Shown: one piece after another, positions 2,867-44,085 of the stretch
Position numbering within the stretch: position 1 is the first letter of the stretch
Layout: the number at the start of each line of letters is the position of its first letter
Source of the DNA: Planctomycetaceae bacterium
GTDB lineage: Bacteria; Planctomycetota; Planctomycetia; Pirellulales; Pirellulaceae
NCBI GenBank assembly: GCA_947463915.1
Contig: CANHVO010000005.1
Location: 1 to 62,891, forward strand
Length of the DNA stretch: 62,891 bases
Reading direction: 5' to 3'
The notes under the pieces: generated by a model
What the model saw: only the letters and a program-made list of their open reading frames with translations
The model's database searches: none
Told to the model about the DNA's origin: nothing
Position numbers and translations under genes: made by a program

Positions 2867-5095
2867 ATGAGCACAAACACTGTTCCTGAGCATAAGCCAT
2901 TTATCGCTGATGAAGCCAACATTCCGGAGTTCACTTGGTTCCCGATCGTTATGGGAGCGTTGCTTGGAATCGTTTTCGGTGCATCATCGATGTATCTGGT
3001 GTTGAAAGTTGGCTTGACGGTATCGGCTTCGATCCCAGTTGCCGTGCTTTCAATCACACTCTTTAGGGCGATTTCTCAGGTTACCGGGGCTCGGAAAACA
3101 ACGATCCTAGAAAACAATATCGTGCAAACGACGGGATCAGCTGGTGAGTCCTTGGCGTTTGCCGTAGGACTGATCATGCCGACTCTCTTGCTTTTGGGAT
3201 TCGACATCGATGTCGTGCGAGTTATGACCGTAAGCGTATTCGGTGGTTTGTTGGGGATTCTATTGATGATTCCGCTTCGTCAAGCCTTCATTGTCAAGCA
3301 GCATGGAATCCTGACTTTTCCCGAGGGCAAAGCATGTGCCGAAGTTTTGCTTGCGGGAGAAAAGGGTGGATCAACTGCAATCATGGTGTTTGCCGGGTTC
3401 GGACTTGGCTTTCTCTACCAGTTTTGTATGCAAGCGTTGCATCTTTGGAAAGACGCAGTTGCATTTGCTCTGTACTATGTTGATGCGGCCGGGAAAGCGG
3501 TTGGACTCAAAGGGGCAACACTCAGTGCAGAGGTGTCCCCGTCGCTCTTGGGGGTTGGATACATTATTGGGCCTCGGATTGCAGGGATCATGTTTGCGGG
3601 AGGAGTGTTAGCATACCTTGTGCTGTGCCCATTGATCGTGTTCTTTGGCGAAGGGTTGGAAGCTCCGCTTGCGCCTGGGACGAAGTTGATCAAGGACATG
3701 AATGAATCGGCAATCCGTTCAAGTTACATTCTGTATATTGGTGCTGGCGCTGTTGCGACAGGTGGCATCATTAGCATGATCAAAGCGCTTCCAACAATCT
3801 TGAGCGCAATCTTGGCTAGCCTCAAAGAATTGTTTGCATCCAAGGATGGATCAAAACAAGGAAATCGCCGAACAGATCGCGATATCCCACTACCGTACGT
3901 CTTGATTGGTAGTCTACTTTTGGTTGTGGGACTAATGGCGGTTCCTCAGTTGGGCCTAGGATTTGGATACACAGGAATGGCAGGGGCTGCCATGATCATT
4001 GTCTTTGGCTTTTTGTTTGTAACCGTTTCCTCGCGATTAACAGGTGAAATTGGTTCCTCATCGAATCCGATTTCTGGGATGACGGTTGCAACGTTGTTGT
4101 TGACATGCCTCATGCTGTTGGGACTGGAGTGGATGGGGGTTGCAACGATCAATAAGGAGATCAAGCTTACTGCGCTGACTATCGCTGGCGTCGTTTGCGT
4201 GGCAGCCTCGAATGGGGGAAGTACCGCTCAAGCGCTCAAGGTTGGTCACATTGTCGGCGCCACGCCACGCGCCCAGCAGTTAAGTATTTTGATCGGCGCG
4301 CTGACATCCGCTTTGGTTGTCGGACTTGTTCTTATAGCGATGAACGAAGCAAACTCGACATACAGCAAAAAAGCTGTGGAGCAGCATGCTAGTGTGGTAG
4401 TCGACGTAAAAGGACTACCTCTGGATCGAGTGCGATCCGGGCCGTATTCAACCGCGGATTCTAAAGACTACTACGTGCTAAACGTAGGGCGAACCGAACG
4501 AGATGCCCCGTTACCGGCTGGTCGCTATCTTTTGGATGATGCAGGTAAGCCGGTATATCTAGTGGATCCAGGCATCAATGGAATCTTGACTGAGGACGAC
4601 GACGGAAAAAGCGTTAAGGCAAGTAAATTTGATGCGCCAAAGACCGTCTTGATGCAACTGATCATCGATGGGATCTTGGATCGGAGGCTTCCGTGGGGGT
4701 TGGTGTTGATTGGGGCACTCATCGCTATAACCCTTGAATTGAGTTGTGTACCAAGTTTACCATTTGCAGTTGGAGTTTATCTGCCTCTCGCAGCATCGAC
4801 GCCCATTTTTTTGGGTGGGATGATTCGCATGGCGGTCGACAAGTGGCAAGGCAACAAAGCGGGAAGTGAAGACGATTCAAGTCCAGCTGTTCTGTTGAGC
4901 TCAGGCTATATAGCCGGCGGAGCTATCGCTGCCGTATTGATCTCATTTATGAACTTCAAAAAAGAATGGCTGGAGATGATCAAGCTAGAGGCATGGGCAC
5001 CTACGACGGAACTGATGTCGCTTTTGCCTTTTGGGATACTGTGTGTTGTCCTGTTGTTCGTTGGAATGAGCAAAAAGCAAATTCCAGCAGAGTAG
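2867..5095 (+). CDS. OPT-family oligopeptide transporter
   Basis: Multi-spanning inner-membrane importer of the oligopeptide transporter (OPT) superfamily, which takes up small peptides or metal chelates with the proton gradient. From the ATG at 2867 the product has 742 residues with about 14-16 hydrophobic helices. Family motifs visible are NNIVQTTGSAGESLAFA near the N-terminus, FPEGKACAEVLLAGE, and SLPFAVGVYLPLA near the C-terminus. A soluble loop of about 100 residues (near 490-590) lies between the last membrane blocks. The reading frame is open 144 nt further upstream, but the residues there are not OPT-like, so the ATG before STNTVPEHKP was chosen. It has no clear ribosome binding site. 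Substrate cannot be told from sequence. Confidence 0.92.
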   Translation: MSTNTVPEHKPFIADEANIPEFTWFPIVMGALLGIVFGASSMYLVLKVGLTVSASIPVAVLSITLFRAISQVTGARKTTILENNIVQTTGSAGESLAFAVGLIMPTLLLLGFDIDVVRVMTVSVFGGLLGILLMIPLRQAFIVKQHGILTFPEGKACAEVLLAGEKGGSTAIMVFAGFGLGFLYQFCMQALHLWKDAVAFALYYVDAAGKAVGLKGATLSAEVSPSLLGVGYIIGPRIAGIMFAGGVLAYLVLCPLIVFFGEGLEAPLAPGTKLIKDMNESAIRSSYILYIGAGAVATGGIISMIKALPTILSAILASLKELFASKDGSKQGNRRTDRDIPLPYVLIGSLLLVVGLMAVPQLGLGFGYTGMAGAAMIIVFGFLFVTVSSRLTGEIGSSSNPISGMTVATLLLTCLMLLGLEWMGVATINKEIKLTALTIAGVVCVAASNGGSTAQALKVGHIVGATPRAQQLSILIGALTSALVVGLVLIAMNEANSTYSKKAVEQHASVVVDVKGLPLDRVRSGPYSTADSKDYYVLNVGRTERDAPLPAGRYLLDDAGKPVYLVDPGINGILTEDDDGKSVKASKFDAPKTVLMQLIIDGILDRRLPWGLVLIGALIAITLELSCVPSLPFAVGVYLPLAASTPIFLGGMIRMAVDKWQGNKAGSEDDSSPAVLLSSGYIAGGAIAAVLISFMNFKKEWLEMIKLEAWAPTTELMSLLPFGILCVVLLFVGMSKKQIPAE

Positions 5096-5352: not shown

Positions 5353-5690
5353 CTAGTCCCAGGCATAACGTTCATCAAGTTCTAGTTCGTACTTCTTGCA
5401 GAGCTTTCGAAATTCGTCTTGAAATGTAACCTGCAAATGGTGTTCGCGTTGATGCGCGATATAGGTCTTTACCATTGCTACGTTTGAAGGGCTAATAGAG
5501 AAGGCTCCGTAGCCACCTTGCCAATAGAAGTCGTGGTATGTTTGGCCTTGTGTCTTGATCCATTTCGATGACTCTCGTTTGATCTCCGCAACTAAGTCCT
5601 TTCAAGCGATGTTCTTGGATTGCCGACACAGGACATGTACATGATCTTCAACGCCACCAACGCTCAAATGGAACGCGGTGATGCATGCCA
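5353..5690 (-). pseudogene. Broken IS200/RAYT-like Y1 transposase
   Basis: Reading the minus strand gives VGGVEDHVHVLCRQSKNIA, then a TGA (5604-5602), then in the same frame KDLVAEIKRESSKWIK and onward to a TAG at 5355-5353. Further motifs are FYWQGGYGAFSIS, YIAHQREHH and ERYAWD. These are the core motifs of the Y1_Tnp (IS200/REP-associated tyrosine) transposase family, including the HUH-type DHVHVL and the tyrosine helix. The expected N-terminal third (first strand and its motifs) is not recognisable upstream. With an internal stop and a lost N-terminus the gene is very likely inactive. Stop-codon readthrough is possible but not indicated. Confidence 0.8.
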
Positions 5691-7072: not shown

Positions 7073-7842
7073 ATTTTTGGTCTCCGTTACCTTCCAATAG
7101 TGAGTGAGTCCGGGATAAGCACAATGCGTACTAACCCCATGACGGTACTTGCCCTTGTTGAACCCAAACGTGACCGATTTGCTATCACTCCGAAGAGTCT
7201 TCACAACCGATCCACCGCCGGATGACAACTGGGTCTGGGCATTAACATCATTAGTCCGACTTGTTCGCAGTACGAAACGCAAAGCTCCTTCTCTGCTGCT
7301 TTCGCGGCGAACTCACCTGCTTTTGAACCGACTCGAATCCTTAGCTTGAGCATGTACGAGCAACCGCACCCCTACGACGGAACGCATTTGCTCAACCCAA
7401 ACATTCGAATTCGGCTTACCAGCCAAGAAGACTGGGGACAGAGAATCTGCCTGCACCATGGGTGACGCCTTCAAGCCGTAGCATCTGCGCACCCATAGCT
7501 GCATCCAAGCAAATCAATCTTGGATTGCAAGCACTTTCCCCCCTAATCAACTTGGCAGGCTTTTCAAAAAACTGGACTTGACTCATAAGAGTTGTCCAGC
7601 GCAGATCAAGCCGTCCTGCACCTAGTTTCGTTTCAAAGGGGGGGATTACTTTAGAAAGAATCTTCGGATCGATCGGTATCAGCCAATTCAACCGAAATCG
7701 AAGTCGAACCCACTCTTTTTTAACCTAAATATCAATTTCGAGCGGGTTTCGATCAAGTGATAAAGACGACGCAACCCATGCATTTTGCTTGACTGGTTTA
7801 ACGAAGGCACTCGCCCATGCTGGGCAACGCTGAGAACCACAT
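7073..7842. other. Long intergenic region
   Basis: Non-coding as far as can be judged. Open frames here (for example 7416-7691 minus) have no domain-like composition or ribosome binding sites. The ATG of the HTH/receiver gene has its GGAG at about 7080, so some of this is leader and promoter sequence. Nothing else was recognised until the palindrome at 7843. Confidence 0.5.
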
Positions 7843-7911
7843 GGATCGAAACTCGTCAAGAGTCTCGGTCGTTTAAGTGAGGCAGTCGAAAGTCTTGACG
7901 ACTTTCGCTAC
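7843..7911. repeat. 69-bp inverted repeat, copy 1
   Basis: The most diverged of four 69-bp elements (others at 9227, 27749, 43871). Its arms contain GAAACTCGTCAAGAGTCTC and GAAAGTCTTGACGACTTTC, ending CGCTAC. Each arm is itself self-complementary, so either one long stem or two side-by-side hairpins can form. It lies upstream of the EEP-fold gene. Confidence 0.75.
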
Positions 7912-7992: not shown

Positions 7993-9150
7993 ATGCTTTC
8001 GTTAAAAAAACGCTACGTGGTGATTGCAGGTATCCTTGGAGGCTTTGCAATCGCCTACCAAGATTCCACTGCGTCAGTTTGGCAACAACTGCAAACCAAA
8101 CTCGCTGCGCTATCCTCTGCATCCCCAAACGCTTCCAGCACGCAATCTTCGACCATACCAACTTTCCACTCGGACTTAGACACTACCTCGAGTCGATTGG
8201 TTTCGAACTCATCCCTCGGGGAACACTTTCGTTCCAACACTTTTTCTGCAGAAAATCTCAATAAAACAGAAACGATCTCCAAGTCCACGCCTGTGTGGCC
8301 TACTGCGTCCAATAGCAATAGCGTGTTGACAAGAGATCCTAACCGCTCTGCCCAACTTCCCACGATACGCATCGCCTCATTTAGCATCGAGGCATTCAAT
8401 GAAACCAAACTGAGAAAAGCAGCCGTCATTGAAACGATTGCTCGGATGATTCGGCAATTCGATGTCATCGCCTTGCAGCACATCCAATCCAAGCAACACA
8501 ACATCGTTCCCGAGTTGCTCGACAAAGTGAATCAAAGCGATCGGCGTTACGACTATTGTATCGGACCACGCGTTGGTACTGAATCCAATCAACAGCAGTT
8601 TGCGTTCTTATTTGACACCGATCGGGTAGAGACAGATCGTCCACAGCTTTACACTGTAGACGACCCGCAAGCCTTAATGGAGTTCGATCCCTTGGTTGGG
8701 TGGTTTCGCTGCAAAGCGGTTCCCAGCGACAAAGCGTTCACATTTACGCTGGTCAATGTACGGCTTGATCCGCTTTCCAACGGCAAAGAACTCAAACTAC
8801 TTCCCGATCTCATTCGAAGCGTACGTCAAGACGGAAGATCCGAAGACGACATTATCCTGCTGGGGAATTTTGGCTACTCAGATAGCGAGATGCAGTCGCT
8901 GCGAAATGCTGGGATGATCTTTGCATTGGAGGGGATACCAACCACCGTAACAGGCGAAGCCATGCTGGACAATCTTGTTTTTCCCGGGCGAGCAACGGAC
9001 GAGTTCACCGGACGGACTGGCGTGGTCGATTTTCTGCGACAACTGAATTTGTCGATCGATCAAGCGTATCAGATTAGCACGCACATGCCCATTTGGGCTG
9101 AGTTCTTTGCCACCGAAGGCGGCAGCCCAGGCTACACAGGCTCGCGATAG
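7993..9150 (+). CDS. Membrane-anchored EEP-fold protein with lost catalytic residues
   Basis: A 385-residue protein with an N-terminal hydrophobic anchor (YVVIAGILGGFAIAYQ), a Ser/Thr-rich linker to about 120, then an endonuclease/exonuclease/phosphatase (DNase I-like) fold. Alignment by motif: LQHI at 161-164 where the family has LQEI (metal Glu replaced by His163); VNVRL where N-x-H is expected (Arg257); LGNFGY where GDxN is expected (Asn292, Gly294); STH where SDH is expected (Thr363, His364 kept). At least four active-site positions are changed, so it is probably not a nuclease. A GTG start at 7951 is possible; the ATG at 7993 begins just before the membrane anchor. Role unknown. Confidence 0.8.
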   Translation: MLSLKKRYVVIAGILGGFAIAYQDSTASVWQQLQTKLAALSSASPNASSTQSSTIPTFHSDLDTTSSRLVSNSSLGEHFRSNTFSAENLNKTETISKSTPVWPTASNSNSVLTRDPNRSAQLPTIRIASFSIEAFNETKLRKAAVIETIARMIRQFDVIALQHIQSKQHNIVPELLDKVNQSDRRYDYCIGPRVGTESNQQQFAFLFDTDRVETDRPQLYTVDDPQALMEFDPLVGWFRCKAVPSDKAFTFTLVNVRLDPLSNGKELKLLPDLIRSVRQDGRSEDDIILLGNFGYSDSEMQSLRNAGMIFALEGIPTTVTGEAMLDNLVFPGRATDEFTGRTGVVDFLRQLNLSIDQAYQISTHMPIWAEFFATEGGSPGYTGSR

Positions 9151-9226
9151 CCGAAGGTGCTAAGCGAATTGGCCCGGACTTGGCAAAGCGGAGAAGCATT
9201 TTCCGCCGCAAAAACCATGCTTTTGT

Positions 9227-9295
9227 GTAGCGAAAGTCGTCAAGACTTTCGGCGGCATTGCATAAACGACCGAAACTCTTGACGAGTTTCGCTAC
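9227..9295. repeat. 69-bp inverted repeat, copy 2
   Basis: Starts GTAGCGAAAGTCGTCAAGAC and ends GAGTTTCGCTAC. The 26-nt arms match at 24 of 26 positions. It is followed by AAAATGCTTCACCGC, which resembles the outer terminal repeat of copy 3. It sits in the gap between the convergent EEP-fold and esterase genes. Confidence 0.85.
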
Positions 9296-9348
9296 AAAAT
9301 GCTTCACCGCATTGCAGTCTTAACGGTTCCGCACGCTCAACTGCACAT

Positions 9349-11562
9349 TCATCGCAGCAACCATGTCACAGCAGCTGATTCCTGTGCTGCTTTATCGCCT
9401 GTGTAAACTTCGAGATCGCTTCGATTGGCTTTCTTGTAGACTTCGCTCACGAGGGCTGGCTCTTTTCCTTCGCCTGCTAACCAGATCGGACTTGGTGACG
9501 CCACTGCCAGCATGCCTGGGATATCGAGATACTTGCTACCGCCTGGAAGGAAATTTGGGGAGCGATAATCGAGTACATTCGCAAACCGAAATCCGGCCGT
9601 ATCGATCGCGGCCTTGTCAATCGATGTTCCGAGTATAGCCCGGGCAGCAGCGGCGATTGGTCCGACGTCTCCCAAGCCTACGAGTGCGACCGAGGATGGA
9701 TTCGGGTGGTCACCTATTTTCGCCGTGCGAAGGAAATGGACCGCGGTCATCACATCATGTGTCCTTTGAGCGAACAACGCATGGTTATAACCGTGTGTGT
9801 AACCTGCAAACTCACGTGGGTTAGCTACTATAGGCGTCTGAGCCAACGGCTTTCCATCCTTCAGAAAGTCACCTTGGAACAGCATGTCGAGCCCGAGCAC
9901 CGTCGCACCAGATTCGACAAGTTTCGCAACGGCAGGTCTTAGCACGCCTTCGGCAGAGTAAAGTCCTGACTTGCCATTGGCATCAAGCCAAACGATGGCC
10001 TTGCCGTTCCATTTCTTTGGGTAAAGCCAAGTAACAGGCAGTTCCTCTTGGTGCGCATTTTTCAGCAGGCCAACCATTTCCACAAAGTTACCACGGTCAT
10101 TTTTGGTCTTGAGATCCCATGTGACGTTTCCGGTTTCAGCGGTCTTTCGTCCGATCAAGACCTCGATTGCACCGCCGATATCTTTGGTCAAAGTGACTGA
10201 TGATTTGGCTGCGTTAAGCATTTGCTTTTCAGCGTCAACGGCAAGCCATTTCAAAAGTTTCTTTTCAAAGTCAGGACCTTTTTCTTTGGGAGCTGGATGT
10301 TCCGTATTCCAAACGGTGAGTTGCTCTCGCGAAAGAGGTTCGAAATCGCGCTCGATCACGGGTTCTTTTTGTCCGAGCTTGAAGTGCTGATTCAGCCAAG
10401 TGTAAAACGCCGAACGCGAGACTGCGTTGTAGTTGTGCGGGAAATGCTCGCCTCGTTGGAGCATGACGTTTTTCGGGGCGCCAAGCAACGAGTATATTTC
10501 CTTCAACTCGGGAAAGCCTTTGGTTGCCATTTCCTTGGTCCAATCGTTCGCGGTCGTCATGCCTTGAGGTTTCGGGGCAAACAACGCGGCGAATTCTATG
10601 TTGCCTGTGTTCACACGTAGGAGTGAAGAGTTCTCGCACGTGCAACCACCTTGCATGGAGGTGCTCACCATCACCGCAGGAAACGACAATTGAATGCGAG
10701 GGTCGATGGCTGCTAAGATCATCGACTGCGTACCTCCACCGCTTGCTCCGGTGATAGCGGTTCGAGTGGGATCCACTTCAGGAATACTGAGCAAGAAGTC
10801 GAGAGATCGCACTGCGTTGAGCGTTTGCAATCCGAGGATGCTTTGCAGATTCGATTCCGCTTGAGGGCTATACAATCCCCAGTCTTTTGTCGTATTCATT
10901 TCAGGTCGTTGTTTGGCAAATGTGTGAACGACTTCACGAGAGAATTGAACCGAGTCGGAATCGCTGAGCATATCCCATTGCCAGACGACACAGCCCATTC
11001 GCGCCAACTGAACGCACATCGATTGAAAACGGCTGTGTCCTCCTTTTTCAAATCGTTCTTCGCCGGTTGCGATCTCGCGAAGAAGGTTCGCTTCGGATTC
11101 GATAGAGAGCCGTGCGTCCTGCCAATGCCCGTGAGCAAACATCACGCCGGGAACTTTCCCACTGACGTTTTTAGGGCGATATAGATTACCGGTAACAAAA
11201 AAGCCAGGAGCGCTTTCGAAGTAGACCTTCTCGATGCTGTATTCAGGTAAATCGATTTTGCCGTGCATGACGGCATTGAGCGGCGATTTGGTCGGCATCG
11301 GCCACAAACCGAGCGATACCAGCATCTGGCGCCGCACATATTCCGAACGGGTATCCCACTCCGCCTTGCTTTTGGGGGGAGTGAAAGGGAAATAACCGTT
11401 CAGGTCTTTCGGCGGCAGAAGCCGTCGATCGTTCGGAGGGGAATTGGGTTCGGCTGCAATCGGGTCCGTTGCATGGGCGATTTTAAGTTGTTGGGGATTT
11501 GAAATTGTTGCTTGGACAGCAAGTAGAAGGAGGGTAAGGGGGAACAAGCGATGTTGTTTCAT
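9349..11562 (-). CDS. Secreted two-domain alpha/beta-hydrolase (acetyl-esterase-like)
   Basis: A 737-residue exported protein. A signal peptide (hydrophobic LFPLTLLLLAVQATI) is followed by an alpha/beta-hydrolase domain of the type annotated as acetyl xylan esterase or dienelactone-hydrolase-like in planctomycetes. Its nucleophile elbow is GASGGG with Ser274; VMFAHGHWQ near 140 fits the oxyanion region, and HFPHNYN near 385 could supply the histidine. A second similar domain (about 480-737) has VALVGLGDVG where GxSxG is expected, so it lacks the serine. Substrate is probably an esterified polysaccharide, but this is inference. The ATG lacks a clear ribosome binding site. Confidence 0.8.
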   Translation of the reverse strand: MKQHRLFPLTLLLLAVQATISNPQQLKIAHATDPIAAEPNSPPNDRRLLPPKDLNGYFPFTPPKSKAEWDTRSEYVRRQMLVSLGLWPMPTKSPLNAVMHGKIDLPEYSIEKVYFESAPGFFVTGNLYRPKNVSGKVPGVMFAHGHWQDARLSIESEANLLREIATGEERFEKGGHSRFQSMCVQLARMGCVVWQWDMLSDSDSVQFSREVVHTFAKQRPEMNTTKDWGLYSPQAESNLQSILGLQTLNAVRSLDFLLSIPEVDPTRTAITGASGGGTQSMILAAIDPRIQLSFPAVMVSTSMQGGCTCENSSLLRVNTGNIEFAALFAPKPQGMTTANDWTKEMATKGFPELKEIYSLLGAPKNVMLQRGEHFPHNYNAVSRSAFYTWLNQHFKLGQKEPVIERDFEPLSREQLTVWNTEHPAPKEKGPDFEKKLLKWLAVDAEKQMLNAAKSSVTLTKDIGGAIEVLIGRKTAETGNVTWDLKTKNDRGNFVEMVGLLKNAHQEELPVTWLYPKKWNGKAIVWLDANGKSGLYSAEGVLRPAVAKLVESGATVLGLDMLFQGDFLKDGKPLAQTPIVANPREFAGYTHGYNHALFAQRTHDVMTAVHFLRTAKIGDHPNPSSVALVGLGDVGPIAAAARAILGTSIDKAAIDTAGFRFANVLDYRSPNFLPGGSKYLDIPGMLAVASPSPIWLAGEGKEPALVSEVYKKANRSDLEVYTGDKAAQESAAVTWLLR

Positions 11563-22568: not shown

Positions 22569-22608
22569 GAACCTTTTTCGACTGTACCAAACCCGAGCAA
22601 CGCTTAGT

Positions 22609-22724
22609 CACCCTCCCTCGGGGAGGGTCGAGCCTTCGGCCCGGGGAGGGTGAACTGACTTGTGCAATAGTTGTTGGCACTTCACCCTCCCCTCGCTACG
22701 CTCGACCCTCCCAGCGGGAGGGTG
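22609..22724. repeat. Large palindrome of GGGAGGGT type
   Basis: Two inverted arms of about 45 nt (22609-22654 and 22680-22724), each carrying internal ACCCTCCC/GGGAGGGT stems, surround a short spacer. It sits between the convergent kinase and putA genes and could serve as a bidirectional terminator, though there is no U-run. A related element is interrupted by an insertion at 27710-27960. Confidence 0.75.
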
Positions 22725-22802
22725 TCTAGACCGGTCTCTTTATCCTAGAAGATAGCACTCCCCTAGAAGTTAGCGCCCGCGGCTCAGAATGAATAATACT
22801 TG

Positions 22803-27626: not shown

Positions 27627-27709
27627 TCGTTGTCCTTTATGGGGTAGTTTCGATGCCGCAGGAGTTGCATCAATGTAGCAGTTCGCCATTCGGGGATCGT
27701 CCGGCTTTG

Positions 27710-27960
27710 TCACCCTCCCTCTGGGAGGGCCACGCAGTGAAGCATTTTGTAGCGAAACTCGTCGAGAGTTTCGGTGGTTTATGCAATGCAGCCGAAAGTC
27801 TTGACGACTTTCGCTACAGAAAGGCCTTTTCTTACCAGAGGAAAAGGCTTCACAGCGTTGTTGGGAGGGGCGAGCGAAGCGAGGGAAGGGTGAAGTGACA
27901 GTAACAATTGTACAATTCAGTTCACCCTCCCCGGCCTCTGGACGACCCTCCCGGAGGGCG
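27710..27960. repeat. GGGAGGGT-type palindrome, interrupted copy
   Basis: Outer parts match the palindrome at 22609-22724 (CACCCTCCCTCTGGGAGGG, CGAGCGAAGCGAGGG, GGGTGAA, TTCACCCTCCCC). The left hairpin is split by a 132-bp insert at 27730-27861. It separates the divergent 5' ends of the redox-membrane gene and the methyltransferase gene, so their promoters may lie in or next to it. Confidence 0.75.
27730..27861. mobile_element. 132-bp MITE-like insertion with target duplication
   Basis: Bounded by direct copies of TGGGAGGG (27722-27729 and 27862-27869), an apparent 8-bp target-site duplication. Its ends CCACGCAGTGAAGC (27730-27743) and GCTTCACAGCGTTG (27847-27860) are inverted with 12 of 14 matches. 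It contains copy 3 of the 69-bp inverted repeat at 27749-27817. It codes for nothing, so it would need a transposase supplied from elsewhere. Confidence 0.75.
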
Positions 27961-27975
27961 GTTGACTAGGGTACA

Positions 27976-43870: not shown

Positions 43871-43939
43871 GTAGCGAAAGTCGTCAAGACTTTCGGCAGC
43901 ATCGCCTAAACGACCGAAACTCTTGACGCGTTTCGCTAC
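43871..43939. repeat. 69-bp inverted repeat, copy 4
   Basis: Begins GTAGCGAAAGTCGTCAAGAC and ends CGCGTTTCGCTAC; only a few differences from copies 2 and 3. It is followed by GATGCTTCACGGCGTTGGG, matching the right terminal repeat of the 132-bp insert at 27730. It lies in the 306-nt gap before the next gene; nothing else is seen there. Confidence 0.85.
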
Positions 43940-44085
43940 AAGATGCTTCACGGCGTTGGGCGAAGCAAGGGAACGAGTTCAACGCGCTTAGCGCGTCGTG
44001 CTAAATATTGGTACCCGCCGCGCGCCTTACCAAAACGCAATAATGCGAGTTGAAACTAACCCAATAGACAATCAGAGAGTCATTC

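Follow-up and report, generated by a model that had tools for sequence, protein, structure and literature searches.

Three repeat layers are nested at one place in the window, the 62,891-nt stretch of DNA analysed here (contig C5 of a Planctomycetaceae assembly of 7.6 Mb in 618 contigs): a palindromic host repeat, an IS4-type MITE within it, and a REPIN carried as cargo within the MITE (Table 1). Comparison of copies, ends and orthologous sites makes it quite probable that the whole arose through the action in trans of a DDE transposase of the IS4 family on a non-autonomous 131-bp MITE, which took the REPIN along.

Table 1. Features of the nested insertion and related copies in the window
Feature	Position	Strand	Description or basis
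Host palindrome, outer part of one arm, with the left duplication at its end	27709..27729		Inverted repeat with 27946-27966; uninterrupted in congener
Left target duplication, 9 bp, CTGGGAGGG	27721..27729		Flank comparison and empty site
MITE	27730..27860	+	131 bp, non-coding; 131 bp in 28 of 32 two-ended copies
Left terminal inverted repeat, 19 bp	27730..27748	+	Matches the right one at 16/19
REPIN core, 69 bp	27749..27817		REP hairpins 27749-27774 and 27792-27817, inverted, each GTAG-headed on its own strand
Right terminal inverted repeat, 19 bp	27842..27860	-	Terminal-repeat search and pairing with the left one
Right target duplication, 9 bp, TTGGGAGGG, one base changed	27861..27869		Flank comparison and empty site
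Host palindrome, rest	27861..27969		27859-27969 matches the 22600-22735 repeat
Other host-palindrome copy, without MITE	22600..22735		Homology search
Second two-ended MITE copy	9184..9314	-	Same place occupied in congener G146
MITE copy, left end and REPIN, right end unrecognisable	7825..7911	+	Common to congener G146
MITE copy, one end and REPIN, other end unrecognisable	43871..43958	-	Terminal-repeat and core searches

The sequence-only reading had described a 132-bp insert in another repeat, flanked by an 8-bp duplication. Insertion and duplication both stand, given the constant ends and different flanks of 32 copies, the same ends on a longer element, and an empty site in a related species; the sizes do not. 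TGGGAGGG does occur twice (27722-27729 and 27862-27869), but with the edges set by the ends of the MITE family the insert has 131 bp and the duplication nine, eight of them identical between the two sides. Likewise, the terminal inverted repeats are longer than the 14 bp first given. Copies with TGGGAGGG within the element and with variable boundaries were looked for among the 32 and not seen. No Rfam family reaches its gathering score in the window.

The unit is a MITE in being short, non-coding, bounded by terminal inverted repeats and present in many copies. A genome-wide search with 27722-27869 gave at least 42 matches in its own genome (best 40 of 382 candidates scored), and the terminal repeat CAACGCTGTGAAGCATTTT is found 86 times in forward and 83 times in reverse orientation with up to two mismatches; the reversed pattern, searched as a control, is found in neither. 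In 30 aligned copies the element is conserved and the flanks are unlike. The core is at 88 distinct places in the own-genome sequence examined, 32 of them with both terminal repeats (no more than 4/15 mismatches in each). Over these 32 copies, identity between the two flanks is at its maximum at 9 bp (0.61, vs 0.35 for mismatched pairs), with lower values at 8 bp (0.38 vs 0.29) and 10 bp (0.41 vs 0.34) and a difference of at most 0.05 from the control at 7, 11, and 12 bp. The duplication is therefore of constant length, as in MITEs, with a peak at 9 bp, though few are perfect (3/32) and some are of 8 bp (L009) or 10 bp (L002). Duplicated targets tend to CC-N5-GG. When the empty sites are rebuilt, pairing around their centre exceeds that of shuffled flanks (the sum over positions 5-13 was reached by 0/200 shuffles); on average the palindromicity is modest, 6/32 copies having at least 8 of the 12 pairs that could form.

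Some less regular arrangements were encountered in these searches. A terminal-repeat spacing of 329 bp was considered as one further MITE and rejected, having turned out to comprise two unlike elements: the first (L051; G000 C3:3690-4018) is an apparent chimera of a REPIN-MITE left half and a different right half with a GGACGG hairpin, with no matching duplication in its flanks, and the second (L052; G000 C161:5790-6118) has the same kind of ends and an unlike interior without REP. At L179 ~8960-9040 (minus-strand matches 10962 and 10981) the left terminal repeat is doubled; the place is worn, and from the GTAGCGA head to the right arm most of the core seems to have been lost. The window also contains, at 5449-5664 on the minus strand, a worn fragment of a Y1 (HUH) transposase with an internal TGA (Pfam Y1_Tnp, 50.5 bits).

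The interrupted palindrome was correctly recognized in the sequence-only reading as a homolog of the one near 22609-22724: with the ~22600-22735 palindrome as query, the match has an E value of 2e-16. The outer parts of its arms form a 21-nt inverted repeat, 86% complementary. This host palindrome is found at 11 places, 22600-22735 included, in a 1.25-Mb sample of its own genome (the window plus 60 stretches, from contigs picked by size).

An empty site is available in another species of the same genus (G146), whose contig C119 matches both sides of the insert, at 90 and 89%. There the host arm reads GTCACTCTCCCTCTGGGAGGGTCGAGCGAAGCGAGGGGAGGG without interruption, with a single CTGGGAGGG, no 131-bp element, and no excision footprint. 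Since the G146 site reads CTGGGAGGG, it is the right copy in the window, TTGGGAGGG, that carries the one change. The presence of the orthologous palindrome in G146 means that the host repeat predates the species split, and on these comparisons the simplest reading is that the MITE would have inserted later than the split; the order of events is thus readable, as had been proposed. The opposite possibility, that the insertion predates the split and the element was lost from the sister species by excision or deletion, draws what support it has from the fact that neither species is an outgroup: no orthologous outgroup site was found, and for the next congener (G136) the matches listed cover just one side. 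It is nevertheless unlikely, as a loss so precise that the site is uninterrupted, with a single CTGGGAGGG and no trace of the element, is less simple than insertion.

The MITE family is accordingly polymorphic for insertion, with this one clean empty site and a second, less clean absence of 140 bases, found when four core-bearing places in L155 1-12000 (contig C15) were compared with G146. In that second case the core at 10997 is within a 140-base stretch absent from G146, and its left end is unrecognisable. Of the other three, the core at 10339, similar to a stand-alone one, is common to both species; the one at 3730-3860 falls within a 715-base difference, not itself a clean insertion; and for the one at 972 no orthologous G146 stretch was found among the matches listed. 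The window copies at 9184-9314 and 7825-7911 are both present at orthologous places in G146, the latter with ~390 extra bases on its left. A separate ~215-bp repeat starting CAACGCTATCAAGCA (L155 10097-10312), found at ~20 places among the G146 matches listed, is missing from the orthologous G146 site.

The host palindrome has been struck by unlike elements in the two species: in G146 the same palindrome contains, 26 bp beyond the empty site, a 159-bp insert. This insert (L214; C119 147993-148151) is a different MITE-like sequence with ends CCACCGCTGTAAACAT.

As would be expected of an IS4-family MITE, the unit shares its ends with a longer element. Five left and four right ends of this element, starting CAACGCTGTGAAGGATT, are found in the assembly; on these nine contigs the first 13 bp are identical to those of the MITE, the ends are located in similar hairpin tips, and contigs C172 and C208 have matching CCTTGAAGG. 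The middle is missing, with contigs ending inside it, and its transposase gene is absent from this assembly. The sequence-only reading had suggested a search for transposase genes with matching terminal repeats. In this assembly the longer element is represented by its ends, which code for MSRKQRAKQ... on the left and ...KLKEIELAAAA on the right, and elsewhere by an intact relative encoding an IS4-like DDE protein. The C-terminal piece of one relative, in G024 of the same family, was matched in 8/396 genomes of the order; the first protein piece, from the end of the G024 open frame, had only sub-threshold Pfam matches and no NCBIfam match, and no relative was found in the plasmids searched. 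A complete relative (L119) was found in another genus (G142). It is 1593 bp long with ends CAACGCCGTGAAG and encodes a 484-aa protein (N-terminus MSQKKSAKQAK) that matches DDE_Tnp_1 (E 4.5e-18) and, below the cut-off of 115 bits, NCBIfam transpos_IS4_1 (1.8e-31, 109.5 bits). Read by eye, its residues fit the IS4-transposase signature, Y-2-R-3-E-6-K. The N- and C-terminal peptides of the longer element agree in part with those of the relatives. No target duplication was found in the flanks of L119; a more distant relative, L115, has CCGAAAGGG at both sides. Another IS4-like element, L117 (G015 C216), has 9-bp flanks CCCGGAGGG and CCCTCCGGG that are reverse complements rather than direct repeats, possibly reflecting an inversion or a symmetric target.

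The inner palindrome was sized correctly from the start, at 69 bp, and is built like a REPIN, with a pair of GTAG-headed REP hairpins in inverted orientation and, between them, a spacer that is less conserved. The MITE query was matched in 54 of 149 genomes of the family (up to five candidates scored per genome). Most rows for other genera among the matches listed align only at query positions ~22-90, which is the core, and full-length or near-full-length MITEs among those matches are limited to G000, G146, G106, and G013. By these alignments the core is dispersed by itself in many genomes of the family, and not only within another repeat. Within the 1.25-Mb own-genome sample, 13 of 40 cores have both MITE arms, 14 the left only, 3 the right only, and 10 neither (1% shuffle threshold; one of the 40 rows, L144, is cut at the locus end); some of the 10 armless cores resemble ones with worn arms. 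Two groups of closely spaced cores, at G013 C2:41049-42096 (partly with the left MITE end) and G006 C1:2468527-2468906, look like tandem REPIN arrays.

REPINs are held to be moved by RAYT transposases. Contig C180 encodes a RAYT-like protein of 225 aa (NF047646, 2e-17, 63.4 bits, below the cut-off of 80), matches to which were found in 47/54 core-bearing and 56/95 other genomes of the family (p 4e-4, from raw counts unadjusted for genome size and kinship), leaving 7/54 core-bearing genomes without one. Of 30 RAYT loci examined, two have this REP nearby, in G000 and G146. The REPIN at the 3' end of the C180 gene is within a MITE copy, which begins on the stop codon in G000 and immediately ahead of that codon in G146, so that the last RAYT codons derive from the MITE terminal repeat (overlap loci G000 C180 7740-8414, L184; G146 C99, L185). 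Because this REPIN is part of a MITE copy it is not independent evidence, and its position adjoining the RAYT gene was dropped as such. The proposal that the 69-bp repeat is mobile therefore has to be divided: at this site it came as MITE cargo, and mobility of its own, suggested by stand-alone copies in related genomes and by its REPIN anatomy, is an inference.

Divergence is uneven within copies. Among 30 MITE copies of 128-134 bp, mean per-site divergence from the consensus is 0.021 and 0.014 for the two REPs, 0.12 and 0.10 for the terminal repeats, 0.145 for the spacer, and 0.179 for the right arm. To avoid selection by core, the sample was also searched with nothing but the terminal repeats. 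There were 83 matches, 32 of them with an adjoining REP, which has no more than 3/26 mismatches in 31 of the 32. Nine of 71 terminal-repeat pairs are clear, with scores of 203-244 (the next is 72; a chance pair at L174 10643, score 67, was left out), and all nine contain the core. Changes in these nine elements fall at 12/468 REP positions and 59/405 positions of spacer and arm, and in one of them, L166, the REPs are more diverged than the rest. The constraint on REPs is not absolute, as the second REP of the shared core at L155 10339 differs between species. In Pseudomonas REPINs too, according to the available part of the report, the spacer is less conserved than the REPs (Bertels and Rainey, PMC3116915).

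More tentatively, the composite could be under two unrelated systems, the REPIN core being spread by a tyrosine (HUH) transposase on the one hand and, as fixed cargo, by a DDE transposase of IS4 type on the other. Selection or homogenisation would then preserve the REP hairpins after insertion, and the body of the MITE would decay. If so, each MITE copy would serve as a yardstick for REP conservation.

Were only the REPIN mobile, a RAYT would repeatedly have inserted the 69-bp core into pre-existing CAACGCTGTGAAG palindromes as its target, in keeping with the REP dimers described at fixed places in larger palindromes (available part of PMC3733652) and with the cores that stand alone in other genomes. 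This is very unlikely, however: 9-bp duplications flank the outer unit itself; the empty site is without outer unit as well as without core; and the clear terminal-repeat pairs of this size in the sample include no unfilled palindrome, with the worn place in L179 as one that may have lost its core. Chance has a negligible likelihood: short G+C palindromes are abundant enough that some matches are expected in such a palindrome-rich region, but a coincidence of duplication and inverted repeats would not yield a blank terminal-repeat control, dispersed copies with different flanks, an empty orthologous site, or the folding z of -8.2 for 27700-27970 as single-stranded DNA (0/200 shuffles as good).

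In the favored explanation, transposition of the MITE in trans, an IS4-family DDE transposase would recognize ends beginning CAACGCTGTGAAG, cut there, and insert the element at sites resembling CC-N5-GG, the cuts staggered by 9 bp and the target often being the tip of a short palindrome rich in G+C. In the present case the MITE would have entered the arm tip of an older palindromic repeat of ~120 bp, after the split from the sister species, with the REPIN core fixed inside it and travelling as cargo. The core was already in the MITE at the time of this insertion, because G146 has the composite too, as does genus g13 at 77-80% identity. The probable order is then entry of the core into the MITE, with the host palindrome at the locus before the split, and afterwards entry of the composite into one arm. 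We infer, rather than read directly from sequence, the transposition mechanism, the RAYT (if any) that moves free cores, and the route by which the core came to be in the MITE.

Insertion of IS4-type elements into palindromes has been published before, as have REP dimers within palindromes. As far as our searches went, a REPIN inside a MITE whose ends match an IS4-type element is new; a REPIN carried by an IS-derived MITE was not found in titles and abstract openings, in a literature coverage that excludes most subscription journals. If the explanation is correct, REPIN numbers in a genome need not mirror RAYT activity, and sites filled or empty between species would let REP turnover be gauged by comparison with equally old MITE sequence alongside. 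The case also shows one palindromic repeat acting as a landing pad for another.

Several known systems are comparable in part. The IS4-family element IS231A reportedly has GGG-N5-CCC targets; it is likened to the present case by this description of its target, not by sequence, and both have symmetric G/C-flanked targets, although here they are CC-N5-GG. The transposase of the relative found here is only distantly related to curated IS4 models. ISRm22 of Sinorhizobium meliloti, which is of the IS4 type, is inserted at the axis of short palindromes, and Tn5/IS50 targets are palindromes whose duplications have GC pairs at both ends (PMC1525189). The present case resembles ISRm22 in having the ends of a probable IS4-type element in palindromes, with 9-bp CC-N5-GG targets, and differs in that what was inserted is a non-coding derivative, 131 bp long, with a REPIN in it, and the targets are other repeats and not REPs. 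Compared with REPIN/RAYT systems, as far as the available text of PMC3116915 describes them, the inverted GTAG-headed REP hairpins, the less conserved spacer, and the RAYT-like gene in the genome are alike; the core in this genome, however, mostly occupies one fixed position in a MITE that has terminal repeats and is flanked by 9-bp duplications, with 10/40 sampled cores having neither arm above threshold. Further parallels are GTAG-15 of Anabaena variabilis and CGTC-1 of Halothiobacillus neapolitanus, REP dimers that occupy a constant position within larger palindromes; the available part of that paper (PMC3733652) records no dimer-less palindromes, gives no IS origin for the outer palindrome, and reports GTAG REPs in the PVC superphylum. 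Here too a REP dimer is fixed in a longer palindrome, with no dimer-less one among nine clear pairs; unlike in those cases, common ends, target duplication, and an empty site connect the outer palindrome with an IS, which offers a candidate mechanism for such fixed REP dimers, namely that the REPIN hitch-hikes in a DDE-transposon MITE.
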